Shown piece after piece: positions 8,455 through 38,173 of a DNA stretch of 51,787 nt (within the stretch, counting starts at the first letter, position 1; every line of letters starts with the position of its first letter). The position numbers and the translations under genes are program-made. The DNA comes from Alphaproteobacteria bacterium. GTDB taxonomy: Bacteria > Pseudomonadota > Alphaproteobacteria > Puniceispirillales > Puniceispirillaceae. The notes under the pieces were generated by a model. The model was not told the DNA's origin and searched no databases. It saw only the letters and a program-made list of their open reading frames with translations. The stretch is taken from contig RFZL01000014.1 of assembly GCA_009920665.1 (NCBI GenBank), positions 1 through 51,787 of the forward strand, written 5' to 3'.

Positions 8455-8463
8455 AAGACCAGA

Positions 8464-8543
8464 CGCTTGGGGTGTCCGCGCGATTGGCCGGGCTGAGAAA
8501 AACCCATCGAACCTGAACCAGGTCATGCTGGCGGAGGAAAGCG
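8464..8543 (+). promoter_or_regulatory. TPP riboswitch (thi box)
   Basis: Thiamine pyrophosphate aptamer. The conserved core is clear: GGGGTGTCC at the start, GGGCTGAGA then ACCC, GAACCTGAACCAGGTCATGC, and GGCGGAGGAAAG. The outer helix P1 pairs CGCTT (8464-8468) with AAGCG (8539-8543). It lies upstream of thiB, so high TPP should shut down thiamine uptake. The expression platform is not certain. TTACC (8590-8594) can pair with GGTAA (8625-8629) of the thiB Shine-Dalgarno region, which would fit control of translation initiation. No U-tract terminator is seen before the ATG. Confidence 0.96.
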
Positions 8544-8630
8544 AGTTACGGGACAGGCTTATACGCCGTTGATCCAGACTTCCCCTTCCTTACCGTTCCA
8601 TATGGCTGACTAAGCAGCATTGGAGGTAAC

Positions 8631-9638
8631 ATGCGCACTTTGTTGATACCGGTCATGGCGATAGTCGCCGTGATGGTCACATCCCTTTCGCTACAGGCGG
8701 CCGAAACGCCCGTGCTGACGATCTACACCTATGATTCCTTTGCCTCGGAATGGGGGCCGGGCCCGGCCATTGAAAAGACGTTTGAGGCCGAATGTGCCTG
8801 TGATGTGAATTTCGTCGCTCTCGACAGCTCCATCGGCATTCTTGGCCGTGTGCAGCTTGAGGGTCCTTCCTCAAAAGCTGACATCGTGCTTGGCCTTGAC
8901 ACCAACCTGATGAAAACCGCGCGTGATACGGGCCTGTTCGCACCGCATGGTGTGTCTCTAGACGGCCGCACCTCCCTTCCTGTTGCGTTCGCCGATGATC
9001 ATTTCGTGCCGTTCGACTGGGGCTATTTCGCCTTTGTCTATAACAGCGAGGCAATGGCAACGCCCCCAACATCCCTGAAGGCACTTGTAAACGCGCCTGA
9101 CGATATCAGGATCGTCATCCAGGATCCCCGCACCTCCACCCCGGGCCTCGGCCTGTTGCTATGGGTGCGTTCTGTCTATGGTGATGATGCTGGCGAAGCC
9201 TGGGCCAGCCTTTCACCAAGAATCGTCACCGTCACCAAGGGCTGGTGGGACGCCTATTCGATGTTCCTCGACGGCGAAGCCGATATGGTTCTGTCCTACT
9301 CGACCTCACCTGCCTATCACATTGTTGTGGATGGCACCGACAAATACAGGGCAGCCGCCTTTGACGAGGGCCACTATATGCAGGTCGAGGTGGCTGCGAT
9401 GTTGAAGAACGCACCGCAACCTGAACTTGCCCGCCAATTCATGGATTTCATCCTGTCTTCGGATTTCCAGTCCGTGATCCCGACAAAGAACTGGATGTAT
9501 CCGGCCGGCAAGGCTGATCTGCCGGAGGCTTTCGACGGTCTGATCCAGCCGGTCGAGGCACGTCTCTATTCGCCTGAAGATGTGGCGGCAAACAAGTCCG
9601 CCTGGGTTGGCGAGTGGCAGCGCGCGCTCAGCCAATAG
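8631..9638 (+). CDS. thiB: Thiamine/TPP ABC transporter, substrate-binding protein
   Basis: Periplasmic binding protein that delivers thiamine, thiamine phosphate or TPP to ThiP. A signal peptide of about 23 residues ends LSLQAA. The mature protein starts LTIYTYDSFASEWGPG, a typical ThiB N-terminus, and the IVLGLDTNL, PFDWGYFAFVYN and WMYPA segments match the family. At 335 aa it has normal length. The SD GGAGG lies 6 nt before the ATG. The upstream TPP riboswitch and downstream thiPQ fix the function well. Its 3' end overlaps thiP by 25 nt. Confidence 0.95.
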   Translation: MRTLLIPVMAIVAVMVTSLSLQAAETPVLTIYTYDSFASEWGPGPAIEKTFEAECACDVNFVALDSSIGILGRVQLEGPSSKADIVLGLDTNLMKTARDTGLFAPHGVSLDGRTSLPVAFADDHFVPFDWGYFAFVYNSEAMATPPTSLKALVNAPDDIRIVIQDPRTSTPGLGLLLWVRSVYGDDAGEAWASLSPRIVTVTKGWWDAYSMFLDGEADMVLSYSTSPAYHIVVDGTDKYRAAAFDEGHYMQVEVAAMLKNAPQPELARQFMDFILSSDFQSVIPTKNWMYPAGKADLPEAFDGLIQPVEARLYSPEDVAANKSAWVGEWQRALSQ

Positions 9639-11242
9639 CGCTCTGGCGGCGGCCGGGGCCAATCTCACTGGTTGGTCTCGGAATCGCCATTGGATTGCTC
9701 GCCCTTGCTTTGGCGGCCATCGGCGCGCTGGTTTCGGTCGCCGGTCACGGTCCGGCGGGCGTTGGCGGCAACATCCTCCGCGTCGCGGCCTTCACCGCGA
9801 TGCAGGCCAGTCTGTCCACCCTGCTCGCTCTCGCCCTCGCCCTTCCCGTAGCGCGTGCCTGCTGGCGCCGCGCCGCGACATGGCGCGCTGGCTGGCTGTT
9901 GCCGTTCTCGTTCCTGCCGGTGGTGATGCCGACAACGGTCGCGGCAACCGGTCTTATAGGTGTGTGGGGACAGCGCGGGTTTGTCTCGGACTATCTTGCC
10001 TTGCTGGGGCTTGACAGGCTGCCGCCGATCTATGGGCTTGGCGCGGTCCTGCTGGCGCATGTATTTTTCAACGCTCCTCTGATGCTGCGCGTGCTGAATG
10101 GCGCGCTGACCAGCGTGCCGGCATCACAATGGCGCCTCTCGGCGCAATGGGGACTGTCCGAGTGGGAGCGGTTCCGGCAGATCGAATGGCCGGCGCTGCG
10201 GCCGGTGATCCCGGGTTTGCTGGCGCTGGTGTTCCTTCTGTGTTTCACCTCCTTTTCCCTCATCCTGATGCTTGGCGGCGGGCCCGCAGTGACGACGCTC
10301 GAGGTCAATATCTACACGGCGCTACGGTTCGATTTCGATCTGGCGCTGGCCGGCAAACTGGCGCTTCTGCAACTTGTGATCTGCGGCGCTGTTGTGGTCC
10401 TGCTGACGCGTCTGACCGGCAGGTCATGGGCCGCCACCCCGCGGCCCACACATGGTGTGCCCCATCAAAAAGGCGATACATCAACACTCTGCCGTAGCGT
10501 CGACGCTCTGGCACTGGCGCTGTTCATCATCATTACCATGCTGCCCGTTATCGCGATCCTTGTGCGCGGGCTGGGGCCATATCTGATCGTGGTGAGCGAA
10601 TGGCCTGCCCTTTACCGAGCGACCGTCACCTCACTTGTCATCGCGCTGTCATCAGGCAGCCTTGCGACCATGATCGCCTTGGTCCTTGCCAGCGCGCGAA
10701 CGCGTCGCAGTGATGCCGGGCTGGCCGTATGGCCGCTCGACCTCTCGATCTCGCTTTATCTCGCCGTGTCGGCGATTGTTCTGGGAACCGGGCTGTTCAT
10801 TCTGCTGCGGCAGGTGGCGGATGTGTTCCTGCTGGCACCACTGTTGGTGACGGTTGGTAACATGCTGATCGCCCTGCCCTTCGCCTACCGGGTCCTTGAA
10901 GGTCGGTTGGCGGCCCTTGCGACAGCGCATGACAGGCTATGTGCCGGGCTTGGCCTTCGCGGCTGGCGCCGCCTACGGCGGGTCACCCTTCCCGCCATCG
11001 CGCCGGAACTTGGTTTTGCCGCCGGTCTGTCCTCGGCCTTGTCCCTTGGCGACATGACGATCGTGGCGCTGTTCGGCAGCCAACAATTTCAAACCCTGCC
11101 ATGGCTTCTCTATCAGACAATGGCGCGTTATCGTGCCGGCGAAGCTGCAGCGCTGTCGCTGTGGTTGCTTACTTTGACATTTCTGCTGTTCATGGGGTTC
11201 ACGCTCGCGGCGAGAATGCTGGGGAGGCGCCGTCATGCTTGA
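9614..11242 (+). CDS. thiP: Thiamine ABC transporter permease
   Basis: Inner-membrane permease with two fused BPD_transp_1 halves, as in ThiP/FbpB. About twelve hydrophobic helices run over 542 aa, with an EAA-type loop in each half (SEWERFRQIEWPALRPVIPG near 190 and LRGWRRLRRVTLPAIAPELG near 455) where ThiQ docks. The start is GTG 9614 inside the thiB 3' end; no better in-frame start precedes the first helix. It overlaps thiQ by 8 nt, so the three cistrons are probably translationally coupled. Confidence 0.94.
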   Translation: MAARAQPIALWRRPGPISLVGLGIAIGLLALALAAIGALVSVAGHGPAGVGGNILRVAAFTAMQASLSTLLALALALPVARACWRRAATWRAGWLLPFSFLPVVMPTTVAATGLIGVWGQRGFVSDYLALLGLDRLPPIYGLGAVLLAHVFFNAPLMLRVLNGALTSVPASQWRLSAQWGLSEWERFRQIEWPALRPVIPGLLALVFLLCFTSFSLILMLGGGPAVTTLEVNIYTALRFDFDLALAGKLALLQLVICGAVVVLLTRLTGRSWAATPRPTHGVPHQKGDTSTLCRSVDALALALFIIITMLPVIAILVRGLGPYLIVVSEWPALYRATVTSLVIALSSGSLATMIALVLASARTRRSDAGLAVWPLDLSISLYLAVSAIVLGTGLFILLRQVADVFLLAPLLVTVGNMLIALPFAYRVLEGRLAALATAHDRLCAGLGLRGWRRLRRVTLPAIAPELGFAAGLSSALSLGDMTIVALFGSQQFQTLPWLLYQTMARYRAGEAAALSLWLLTLTFLLFMGFTLAARMLGRRRHA

Positions 11243-11843
11243 AGTCGACAGACTTTCCTTTGAACGCCCCGGCGGGTTGGCATTTCACTATGATTTCACC
11301 CTTGCCGCTGGCGAGATTCTTGCGGTCCAGGGTCCCTCGGGCGTTGGCAAGACTACCCTTCTCGACCTGATCGCCGGGTTCGAGTCACACTTAACCGGGC
11401 GACTCGCCTGGGATGGCATCGAGTTTTCCACCCTTCCGCCATGGGAGCGTCCCGTCACCACCGTCTTTCAGTCCGACAATCTGTTCGCCCATCTGTCATG
11501 TCGCGAGAACGTCACCATCGCCCTTGACGGTGCCACAATCGCGGCCACGGAGGTGGATGGCGCCTTCGCCCGCCTTGATATAGACGGTTTGCAAGCACGC
11601 CTGCCCGAGGAAATCTCCGGCGGCCAGCAACAGCGTGTGGCGCTTGTCCGCGCACTGCTTCGTGACCGGCCGATCCTGCTGCTGGATGAAAGCTTCAGCG
11701 CCCTTGACTGGCCGACGCGACGCGGTTGTTTCGATGCTTTACAGGAAATCGCGACGACACGTCGGATGGCGGTGATTTTCGTCAGCCATGATGAACGTGA
11801 TGCGGCCTATCTGGAGTGCGACGTGCTGAAACTCGACCGCTAA
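11235..11843 (+). CDS. thiQ: Thiamine ABC transporter ATP-binding protein
   Basis: ATPase that powers ThiBP. Walker A GPSGVGKT is at 33-40, the Q-loop is in VFQSDNLFAHL, the signature ISGGQQQRV starts near 127, Walker B LLLDES lies near 152, and the H-loop is VSHDERD. At 202 aa it is slightly shorter than the E. coli protein and has no regulatory C-terminal domain, as usual for ThiQ. It ends the riboswitch-controlled operon and converges on the M48 peptidase gene 21 nt away. Confidence 0.94.
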   Translation: MLEVDRLSFERPGGLAFHYDFTLAAGEILAVQGPSGVGKTTLLDLIAGFESHLTGRLAWDGIEFSTLPPWERPVTTVFQSDNLFAHLSCRENVTIALDGATIAATEVDGAFARLDIDGLQARLPEEISGGQQQRVALVRALLRDRPILLLDESFSALDWPTRRGCFDALQEIATTRRMAVIFVSHDERDAAYLECDVLKLDR

Positions 11844-13969: not shown

Positions 13970-14291
13970 TGGCCGGTCCTTTCGCGACGAGGCGCTGCCA
14001 TGACGCGGTGTTTTTCCGTCAGTGCCACCGGCACCGGAAGGAAGTGTCACAAAGGGATTTTGTAGCTTCTCAGACACTCTTTTCCACGCTTTCCCTTGAT
14101 CGCGACCGTTTGATTCACGTTGATGAATTGCCCGGGTCTCAGTTCGCCCGGGACCGGCAAACTGCATCACCCTACATCGCCATCGACGCCAATGCCAAGC
14201 AACCGTGAAGTTGCCACAGAGCAATCAATCACCTTCGTCACATCTGTGTGATTAGTACTTTACGATTAATTAATAAAGGTAGAGCTAACTT

Positions 14292-14362
14292 GTTACCTGA
14301 CGGCGGCGCCGGGCATTCCTCCACCCGGTGCCGCGGTCACCAAAGGCAGATGTAACAAGGAG
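14292..14362 (+). promoter_or_regulatory. Folded 5' leader of the 67-aa gene
   Basis: GCGGCGCCGGG (14303-14313) pairs with CCCGGTGCCGC (14324-14334) in an 11-bp helix with one G-U pair. Across a G-G mismatch it extends with TGAC (14298-14301) and GTCA (14336-14339). An outer helix is possible between GTTAC (14292-14296) and GTAAC (14352-14356), which directly abuts the Shine-Dalgarno AAGGAG (14357-14362). The apical loop (14314-14323) contains CTCC, complementary to GGAG of the SD. No U-tract follows, so it is not a terminator. Upstream, 13970-14291 holds only the divergent promoters; it is A+T rich at 14245-14280. Confidence 0.6.
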
Positions 14363-14368
14363 TTTCCC

Positions 14369-14572
14369 ATGGCCGAAATAGCTGTTTCCTTCTTCAGCGA
14401 ACCGAATGCAGATAGCCGCACGCGCCGCGTTTCCTTCCCTTGCGCGGCGCCAAGTCAGCTTCATCATGACATTCGTTCGGCAATGCGGGGTCGCGAGTTC
14501 TTCGCCTGTTACATGGCGCCCGAAGGCGGTGTCGTTGCGCTCGACCGTCAGGGCGTCACTGTCAACATCTGA
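14369..14572 (+). CDS. Small protein of unknown function (67 aa)
   Basis: I do not recognise this protein. It begins MAEIAVSFFSEPN, contains a Cys-Ala-Ala-Pro stretch and a second Cys (FFACYM), and ends GGVVALDRQGVTVNI, which looks like two short beta-strands. There is no signal peptide or membrane helix. Support for a real gene is strong for its size: AAGGAG lies 6 nt before the ATG, the leader is highly structured, and a near-perfect intrinsic terminator starts 26 nt after the stop. It is therefore a single-gene transcription unit. Neighbours are DUF898 (divergent) and tRNA-Lys (convergent), which give no functional clue. Confidence 0.75.
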   Translation: MAEIAVSFFSEPNADSRTRRVSFPCAAPSQLHHDIRSAMRGREFFACYMAPEGGVVALDRQGVTVNI

Positions 14573-14598
14573 CTGCTCTTCTCCCGGCAGTTGGATGT

Positions 14599-14632
14599 CA
14601 CCCCTTGGCCAGGAATGGTCGGGGGGTGTTTT
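14599..14632 (+). terminator. Intrinsic terminator after the 67-aa gene
   Basis: A 13-bp stem (14599-14611 with 14616-14628, including three G-U pairs) closes a GGAA tetraloop and is followed by TTTT. This is one of the clearest terminators in the window. Confidence 0.88.
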
Positions 14633-14669
14633 CACTTTCTGGAAAGTTCACCCATGGTCAGCGTCCAAC

Positions 14670-14704
14670 AAAAAAGCCGGCATAATCACAAGGATTACAC
14701 CGGC
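14670..14704 (-). terminator. Intrinsic terminator of tRNA-Lys
   Basis: On the minus strand GCCGGTGTAATC and GATTATGCCGGC form a 12-bp stem with a 5-nt loop, followed by six T. It starts 7 nt past the CCA end of the tRNA, so the tRNA is the last or only gene of its transcript. Confidence 0.9.
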
Positions 14705-14710
14705 CTTTAA

Positions 14711-14786
14711 TGGTGAGCGCGACAGGATTCGAACCTGTGACCCAGTGATTAAAAGTCACTTGCTCTACCAACTGAGCTACGCGCCC
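14711..14786 (-). tRNA. tRNA-Lys (anticodon TTT)
   Basis: A 76-nt cloverleaf on the minus strand starts GGGCGCG and ends CGCGCTCACCA. The acceptor stem pairs fully with one G-U. The D-arm reads GCTC-AGTTGGTAGA-GC, the anticodon loop is CTTTTAA with TTT, and the T-arm contains GGTTCGAATCC. The CCA is encoded. A strong terminator follows; the stretch 14787-14966 upstream should contain its promoter, but I see no convincing boxes. Confidence 0.98.
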
Positions 14787-37379: not shown

Positions 37380-38173
37380 GCTTGATCCCTTGATCTGAGA
37401 AAAAGAGGTGCGAACCGGCTGTCCTGACGCAAACGTACCATGCCTTCGCGCGCCAGTTCCAGCGAGGCGACGAAATGCGATGCCGTTGCCGAGCGGCGGT
37501 CAAGGTCGGTTTTCAGATTGGGCGGCAGAAAGGTTTCAAGCACCGTCCATTCAGGCACCCCGCCAATGAGCGAACGCAGCCGGTTTGTCGCCTCCTCGAC
37601 CGAGAAGAGCCGCGTCGCGGCAATGGTCAGGGTGCGGTTCTCGACCCCCGACTGGATCGACCCGTAACAGGCCAGCAAATCGTAAAGCGTCGCCGTCCAG
37701 ACCGGTTCGGTCACGCTTTCGAACGTTTCCGGTTCACCGCGGGCAAAACGCTGTTGGCCAAGTCGTGGCAATGAGATCAGTCTTTTTGATGCCTGCTGCA
37801 TCGATTCGAGGCGCAGCAGCTGATATTTCAGCGCATCGGTCATGTCGATGACTTCTTCGGCCTGCTCGGGCTCCGGTTCGGGGAGGAGGAGCCGCGATTT
37901 CAGATAGGCAAGCCAGGCCGCCATCACCAGATAATCGGCGGCGACTTCAAGATCGAGACGCCGCACCGTGTCGATATAGCTGAGATATTGTTCAGCCAGT
38001 GGTAGAATGGCAATTCGTGACAGATCGACCTTTTGCTCGCGGGCGAGCGACAGCAGCAGGTCGATAGGCCCCTCAAATCCGTCAAGATTGACGAATAGTG
38101 ACAGCTGCTCGGGTACCGTGCGCGGCGGCTGCCCCTCGTCAAACGGCTCGGCTGTGGTGTTGTTTTCAGTCAT
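37376..38173 (-). CDS. scpA: Segregation and condensation protein A
   Basis: Kleisin subunit that bridges SMC heads. The N-terminal FEGPIDLLLSLAREQKVDLS is the ScpA hallmark, followed by ILPLAEQYLSYI and YLVMAAWLAYLKSRLLLP. The C-terminal winged helix (about 195-265) binds the other SMC head. ATG 38173 is used (MTENNTTAEPF); the open frame continues to a TTG at 38215 that overlaps the previous gene. In many alphaproteobacteria nagZ separates this gene from the SPOR gene; here only 22 nt lie between them. Confidence 0.94.
   Translation of the reverse strand: MTENNTTAEPFDEGQPPRTVPEQLSLFVNLDGFEGPIDLLLSLAREQKVDLSRIAILPLAEQYLSYIDTVRRLDLEVAADYLVMAAWLAYLKSRLLLPEPEPEQAEEVIDMTDALKYQLLRLESMQQASKRLISLPRLGQQRFARGEPETFESVTEPVWTATLYDLLACYGSIQSGVENRTLTIAATRLFSVEEATNRLRSLIGGVPEWTVLETFLPPNLKTDLDRRSATASHFVASLELAREGMVRLRQDSRFAPLFLRSRDQA

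Follow-up and report, generated by a model that had tools for sequence, protein, structure and literature searches.

Loops of the anti-Shine-Dalgarno (‘aSD’) type that block ribosome sites have been described in rhizobia (PMC10746234; PMC3927594, section 2.7), where the sequences of the supporting stems vary and those of the loops stay (PMC3927594, section 2.7); one such RNA, NfeR1, carries three functionally redundant aSD motifs and silences ntrBC (PMC10746234). A related arrangement is the ‘CIN1’ locus of Rhodobacter sphaeroides, a member of the ‘cuckoo’ RNA family, in which four stress-induced RNAs (CcsR1-4) are cut by RNase E from the ccaF1 transcript; CcaF1 itself, a DUF1127 protein of 71 residues, is an RNA-binding protein that assists in the maturation of those four RNAs (PMC10253847; PMC8625941). 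In Staphylococcus aureus, an aSD motif lies in the 3' untranslated region (UTR) of the regulator gene icaR and pairs with that gene’s own Shine-Dalgarno (SD) sequence (PMC3868564), and in Sinorhizobium meliloti an attenuated DUF1127 gene possesses a translation-sensing leader with C-rich codons that are able to pair with a ribosome site (PMC12218461). A report on a Caulobacter RNA sponge (PMC12559287) offers no closer precedent.

The locus considered here lies in a window (the whole stretch of DNA that was analysed) of 51,787 nucleotides, from the 2.69 Mb genome of an uncultured ocean bacterium of the SAR116 group. SAR116 bacteria are abundant in the ocean; within the literature searched, no paper on their small RNAs was found. 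The locus consists of an unannotated gene for a protein of 67 amino acids, with one hairpin before the reading frame and one after it (Table 1). The loops of both hairpins resemble CCUCC, the anti-SD core of 16S ribosomal RNA. The reading favored here, to which a probability of about one half is assigned, is that the locus encodes a protein and that its UTRs, above all the 3' one, serve as an aSD RNA regulator.

In its layout the locus is closest to CcsR1-4/ccaF1: both are alphaproteobacterial, and both place a small protein gene, an aSD-loop RNA and a Rho-independent terminator (present in the window) in one transcript, which for the window is a predicted one. In contrast to that system, however, the protein is not a DUF1127 protein and has a predicted fold that is rich in beta structure; there is one aSD hairpin after the reading frame and one before it rather than a tandem array; the stop codon lies inside a hairpin; and the loop motifs, UCCUCCA and UCUCCC, are shorter than the 9-mer CCUCCUCCC of the cuckoo RNAs (PMC3927594, section 2.7). 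An exact copy of that 9-mer follows the stop codon in only two of 18 homologues (L011 and L012, both distant members), and DUF1127 was absent from the Pfam matches of 17 family members up to an E-value of 1. Because the 9-mer, the tandem hairpins and DUF1127 are all missing, the locus has not been filed as a member of the cuckoo/CIN1 group; on the features of that group as given in citing papers, it would work like such a locus without belonging to it. The single DUF1127 match in the same genome (L034) is not closely followed by CCTCC or CTCCC, and none of nine other exact 9-mer sites, in four genomes of the family, has a terminator-like stem within the 110 nucleotides that follow. One of the nine (CCTCCTCCC, L058) occurs on the minus strand of the window at 37881-37889, mostly in a predicted hairpin loop but inside a frame of 290 codons. 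Nothing relevant that links CCUCCUCCC with DUF1127 was encountered within the literature searched.

The likeness to NfeR1 and to the alpha-r14 small RNAs of rhizobia resides in CCUCC-type loops borne on changing stems, which in those RNAs silence messengers at the ribosome site (PMC10746234; PMC3927594, section 2.7); NfeR1, however, is a trans-acting RNA with three 9-mer hairpins, whereas the hairpins described here flank a reading frame. In the Sinorhizobium meliloti leader, it is the C-rich codons of an upstream reading frame that cause premature termination, while here the motif occupies the loops of hairpins and the gene encodes an unrelated protein.

Table 1. Positions of the features of the locus, numbered from the first base of the window
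Feature	Position	Strand	Basis or remark
Inverted repeat TCAC-N6-GTGA, putative operator at promoter	14238-14251	+	conservation
Leader outer helix	14289-14296/14352-14359	+	fold; pairs AAG of the SD
Leader middle helix	14298-14301/14336-14339	+	fold
Leader inner helix, 11 bp	14303-14313/14324-14334	+	fold
Leader loop CAUUCCUCCA, aSD motif CCUCC	14314-14323	+	conservation, fold
Shine-Dalgarno AAGGAG of the 67-residue frame	14357-14362	+	sequence; 6 nt upstream of the ATG at 14369
Reading frame, 67 amino acids	14369-14572	+	unannotated SAR116 small protein family
3' hairpin	14565-14598	+	fold; between reading frame and terminator
3' hairpin, 5' arm	14565-14577	+	stop codon with the final five coding bases before it and five bases after it
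3' hairpin, loop CUUCUCCC	14578-14585	+	fold
aSD motif UCUCCC in 3' loop	14580-14585	+	conservation
3' hairpin, 3' arm	14586-14598	+	fold; terminator adjoins directly at 14599
Intrinsic terminator	14599-14632	+	13-pair stem 14599-14611/14616-14628, 4-nt loop, T run

The small protein gene and its distribution

The original prediction had proposed a search for relatives of the 67-residue protein; of the 61 genomes of the family, 21 were found to carry a homologue, including 13 of the 28 that are near-complete (an additional weak place, L029 in genome G063, was left out of this count). Within the genus the corresponding figures are 6 of 12 genomes and all three near-complete ones. A scan of the order, which covered 72 genomes at least 80% complete and produced matches in 17, recovered no homologue from the 33 genomes of other families; two weak matches (L032 and L033) were dropped as unrelated by eye. 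A scan of the class, in which up to 15 candidates were scored in each of 387 genomes at least 90% complete, gave seven matches at an E-value of 0.01 or below, five of them in the same family; the other two (E-values of 0.0037 and 0.0076) have frames unlike those of the family and were dropped as chance matches. Downstream of the gene, the window has a convergent tRNA-Lys(TTT) gene, and 11 of the 19 other loci scanned have one within about 1.1 kb; the recurrence of this neighbor indicates that the homologous loci largely represent one orthologous place.

The ratio dN/dS is between 0.06 and 0.30 in 18 of 20 homologue pairs, and between 0.15 and 0.30 in 14 of 15 pairs within the genus; the nearest genus pair gives a value of 0.50, which rests on very few changes. 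Values within genus g10 are 0.06-0.12, and two further pairs gave 0.14 (L007/L020) and 0.42 (L008/L025). Eight residues, Ala46-Cys47 among them, are invariant across 17 sequences. Judged from comparison of the homologous sequences, the gene is real and its protein is conserved under purifying selection. In three loci Cys47 is replaced (by His in L025 and by Arg in L026 and L028), and the L028 copy is also frameshifted; the gene seems to be decaying in these lineages. In one further homologue (L024) neither ATG nor GTG nor TTG occurs in the chosen frame, such that its start, and hence its ribosome site, is uncertain. On the minus strand of the window, an open frame of 116 amino acids (14285-14635) spans the whole gene.

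The AlphaFold2 model of the protein is confident (pLDDT 88.7, pTM 0.74) and displays a beta-beta-alpha-beta-beta topology. Searches of NCBIfam, Pfam, PHROGs and the sequences in the PDB with 17 members returned no credible family. The best E-values (0.024 in NCBIfam, 0.054 in Pfam and 0.0094 in PHROGs) involved one or two members each and were rejected, as was the best match among PDB sequences (E-value 1.3). Three weak and mixed fold look-alikes were also set aside: AcrIF9 (Z 6.2), a designed protein (Z 5.4) and the small chain of the LsoA-Dmd complex (Z 4.7).

The 3' hairpin at the stop codon

The strongest feature of the locus is the hairpin that encloses the stop codon, which was missed in the original prediction; the proposal made there, of a regulated small protein or a dual-function RNA, draws most of its support from this structure. 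Among six species of the genus, 92.3% of the cells of the aligned stem hold standard pairs, as compared with 22-42% when the partner strand is slid by one to three columns, and 4 of 13 pairs have changed on both sides. In one such position a base of codon 66 faces a base of the 3' UTR, and the two form G-C in three species and A-U in two, the pair being broken in the remaining one. For neither hairpin of the locus are further pair types more numerous than in shuffled alignments (335-345 of 500 shuffles were as high). In other genera, read by eye, a hairpin of different stem sequence occupies the same position relative to the stop codon.

The aSD motif in the loop has been widely retained. Either CUCCC or CCUCC occurs within 30 nucleotides after the stop codon in 17 of 18 homologues (which are related to one another, so that these are not independent counts), as against 271 of 11,102 control 30-mers from the same loci with the gene regions included, and 161 of 9,528 (1.7%) with those regions removed. 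Once three partial or degenerate copies are added the motif is kept in 19 of 21 loci, the exceptions being L025 and L026, both with CGCCC in place of CUCCC and both also lacking Cys47. When stretches of 63 nucleotides were folded, the last four bases of the motif were open inside at least ten enclosing pairs in 17 of 17 members, where 4.0 would be expected from shuffled flanks; when 118 nucleotides were folded, 16 of the 17 had the motif in an apical loop (the exception being L023). A MAFFT alignment that joined further homologues to those of the genus mis-set the motif and was left out of the counting.

The loops themselves are 8 to about 29 nucleotides long, with only the aSD core constant. 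Four members of genus g10 (L010, L019, L022 and L024) have enlarged loops with at least two CUCC units, the region between the arms in that genus and in L011 being about 19-29 bases long and rich in such units; L012 has long arms and a 13-base loop that carries the CCUCCUCCC 9-mer. The folding energy of the 3' region ranges from a z-score of -4.6 to one of +0.6, with 8 of the 18 members at values from -1.5 to +0.6; since it is unremarkable in several of them, the case for the hairpin rests on covariation and on the placement of the motif. An RNA model of the hairpin, run against 61 genomes, recovered the six members of the genus together with two weak matches, and no homologues from other genera; the weak matches (L047 and L048) both lie in long open frames and were rejected.

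Directly behind the hairpin stands the predicted 13-bp intrinsic terminator, which is present as a stem that includes 8 G-C pairs and some G-U pairs, followed by a short T run. It is the only match of a mechanical scan of positions 14150-14720, in which 0.7 would be expected by chance, such that the scan on its own is weak evidence; a strong stem stands at the same place in each of 18 folded homologues.

Two similar loops on either side of one small reading frame might also be binding sites for a protein, either the 67-residue protein itself (in an autoregulatory circuit) or an RNA chaperone, with the likeness to an aSD sequence being incidental. CcaF1, which binds RNA and assists in maturing the RNAs of its own transcript, provides a parallel (PMC10253847). 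This explanation is nevertheless quite improbable: the protein is near neutral in charge and not markedly basic (7 Lys plus Arg, 7 Asp plus Glu), no RNA-binding family is credibly related to it, the best of its fold matches (AcrIF9) is weak, and the wide variation in 3' loop length leaves nothing constant except the aSD core.

The leader hairpin and its relation to the ribosome site

The leader has the architecture that was originally ascribed to it, with an inner helix of 11 bp seen both by reading and by folding, an outer helix that touches the SD, an AAGGAG sequence ahead of the start codon and a CCUCC-bearing loop that is complementary to it. The minimum free energy of positions 14282-14385 is -42.2 kcal/mol, against a mean of -31.9 (standard deviation 3.3) for dinucleotide shuffles (z-score -3.15; 1 of 200 shuffles was as stable). 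The loop sequence UCCUCCA is invariant in all six members of the genus that carry the gene, on stems that differ. In these six species 93.3% of the cells of the innermost five pairs hold standard pairs, and the compensatory changes that the prediction had proposed looking for are present, 4 of the 5 pairs having changed on both sides; the covariation score is 0.69, where shuffles give 0.28 and sliding the partner gives no more than 0.42. Comparative sequence evidence of this kind supports the predicted hairpin. With homologues of the protein found and the stem changes compensated, neither of the two observations named as refuting the original prediction was made. The loop is predicted to be unpaired with a probability of 0.80-1.00 between 10 and 37 C in all six members; when a longer and slightly different stretch of L005 was folded, three of its bases were paired. 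Outside the genus, a leader loop with an aSD motif was found in L011 only.

Stable short messenger RNAs commonly carry strong stems at both ends, and the two hairpins might accordingly be plain stabilizers that protect a short message and whose loops have no target. However, a stabilizer needs no fixed loop sequence, yet here the loops hold UCCUCCA in 6 of 6 cases and CUCCC or CCUCC in 17 of 18, which makes this explanation highly improbable.

The outer helix that pairs three bases of the SD in the window’s species is found in four of the six genus members (L001-L004) and is missing in L005 and L006. This helix speaks for the RNA thermometer or riboswitch that was originally suggested, a reading that is nevertheless very improbable. 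The predicted mean opening of the SD in the window is flat with temperature (0.28 at 10 C and 0.29 at 37 C), and over that range it changes by no more than 0.06 in five of the six species, while in L006 it rises from 0.43 to 0.66. As for a riboswitch, no Rfam match was obtained between 14000 and 14700 up to an E-value of 5, and no metabolic gene is attached to the leader. At gathering scores, the only Rfam matches in the whole window are tRNA-Lys and a TPP riboswitch (RF00059, positions 8458-8556), the latter followed by genes (8631-11843) that presumably encode a thiamine ABC transporter.

A start-stop pair, AUGUAA, is located at 14350-14355, just upstream of the SD, and could be a minimal upstream reading frame. 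It lies inside a block of 23 bases (CAAAGGCAGATGTAACAAGGAGT) that is common to L001-L004, even where the hairpin differs, and absent in L005 and L006; within that block, GUAACAAGG resembles a stretch from the 3' part of 16S rRNA.

The position of the leader loop also invites a cis-acting explanation in the manner of icaR, in which the leader loop (through a pseudoknot) and/or the 3' loop would pair with the gene’s own SD and repress its translation. Complementarity of 4-6 bp to the gene’s own SD exists in most members, four species have part of the SD tied up in the outer helix in any case, and the 3' UTR of icaR in Staphylococcus aureus furnishes a precedent (PMC3868564). Pairing of the 3' loop is on average slightly stronger with a member’s own SD than with swapped ones (-6.5 vs -6.2); the difference is not significant, as 239 of 2000 permutations were as strong, in a comparison that includes L024 with its uncertain start. 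The pseudoknot originally envisaged is possible, since pairing between the leader loop and the SD of the same gene is predicted, but the loop pairs about equally well with the SDs of most other members. In addition, L006 has a changed SD and a retained loop, and the leader loop of the window binds a made-up consensus SD (-9.2 kcal/mol) better than its own (about -6.2 kcal/mol). Whereas icaR pairs with its own SD, no specific coevolution with the gene’s own SD was found here. Autoregulation in cis is judged unlikely. Since pairing with the gene’s own SD is weak and not clearly specific, action in trans upon other messenger RNAs is the better guess, at about even odds.

A proposed dual gene for a protein and an anti-Shine-Dalgarno RNA

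Upstream of the presumed transcript, 15 of 18 homologues carry an inverted repeat of the form TC[AG]C-N6-GTGA, at 85-141 bases ahead of the start assigned to them, as compared with two occurrences in 48,113 bases of control stretches from the same loci. A sigma-70 scan found no promoter, and no RpoH promoter was recognized at the locus by eye. A search for the palindrome in three genomes returned one site in each, that of G001 being elsewhere, from which no regulon can be inferred. Near the palindrome, spacing like that of the CtrA motif, TTAA-N7-TTAA, was seen by eye, which brought control by CtrA into consideration.

Comparison of the homologues establishes a conserved protein, conserved loops, compensated stems, a hairpin placed at the stop codon, and the terminator. 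From these elements the following sequence of events may be proposed for the dual protein and aSD RNA gene. One short transcript, probably starting near 14275-14285, would be controlled by some regulator at the TCAC-N6-GTGA site. The same transcript would encode the 67-residue protein and display two aSD loops, of which the leader would present UCCUCCA and the stretch right behind the stop codon UCUCCC. The 3' hairpin and terminator might then accumulate as a small RNA, either free or cut from the messenger, which by analogy with the aSD-loop RNAs of rhizobia would pair with the ribosome-binding sites of other messenger RNAs and lower their translation. The 67-residue protein may possibly play a role in the handling of RNA. 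That CCUCC is the aSD core of 16S rRNA is given in PMC6288834; a sequence pattern for the 16S 3' end found no match in four genomes, and the ribosome’s own aSD sequence is therefore assumed to be the usual one.

The position of the stop codon inside the 3' hairpin carries a further implication, because terminating ribosomes would have to open the hairpin and exposure of its loop would consequently be tied to the level at which the reading frame is translated. Extended in this manner, the proposal becomes a speculative and rather doubtful one, in which the small protein and its flanking aSD hairpins form a single riboregulatory device specific to SAR116: terminating ribosomes would gate the exposure of the RNA, and a shortage of ribosomes or of translation would free it to damp the translation of other messengers. 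If true, aSD regulators tied to small protein genes would exist with a different and unrelated protein, and a hairpin at a stop codon would couple the release of an RNA to translation. For a family of 67-residue proteins that carries no annotation, the locus would thereby provide a lead to function.
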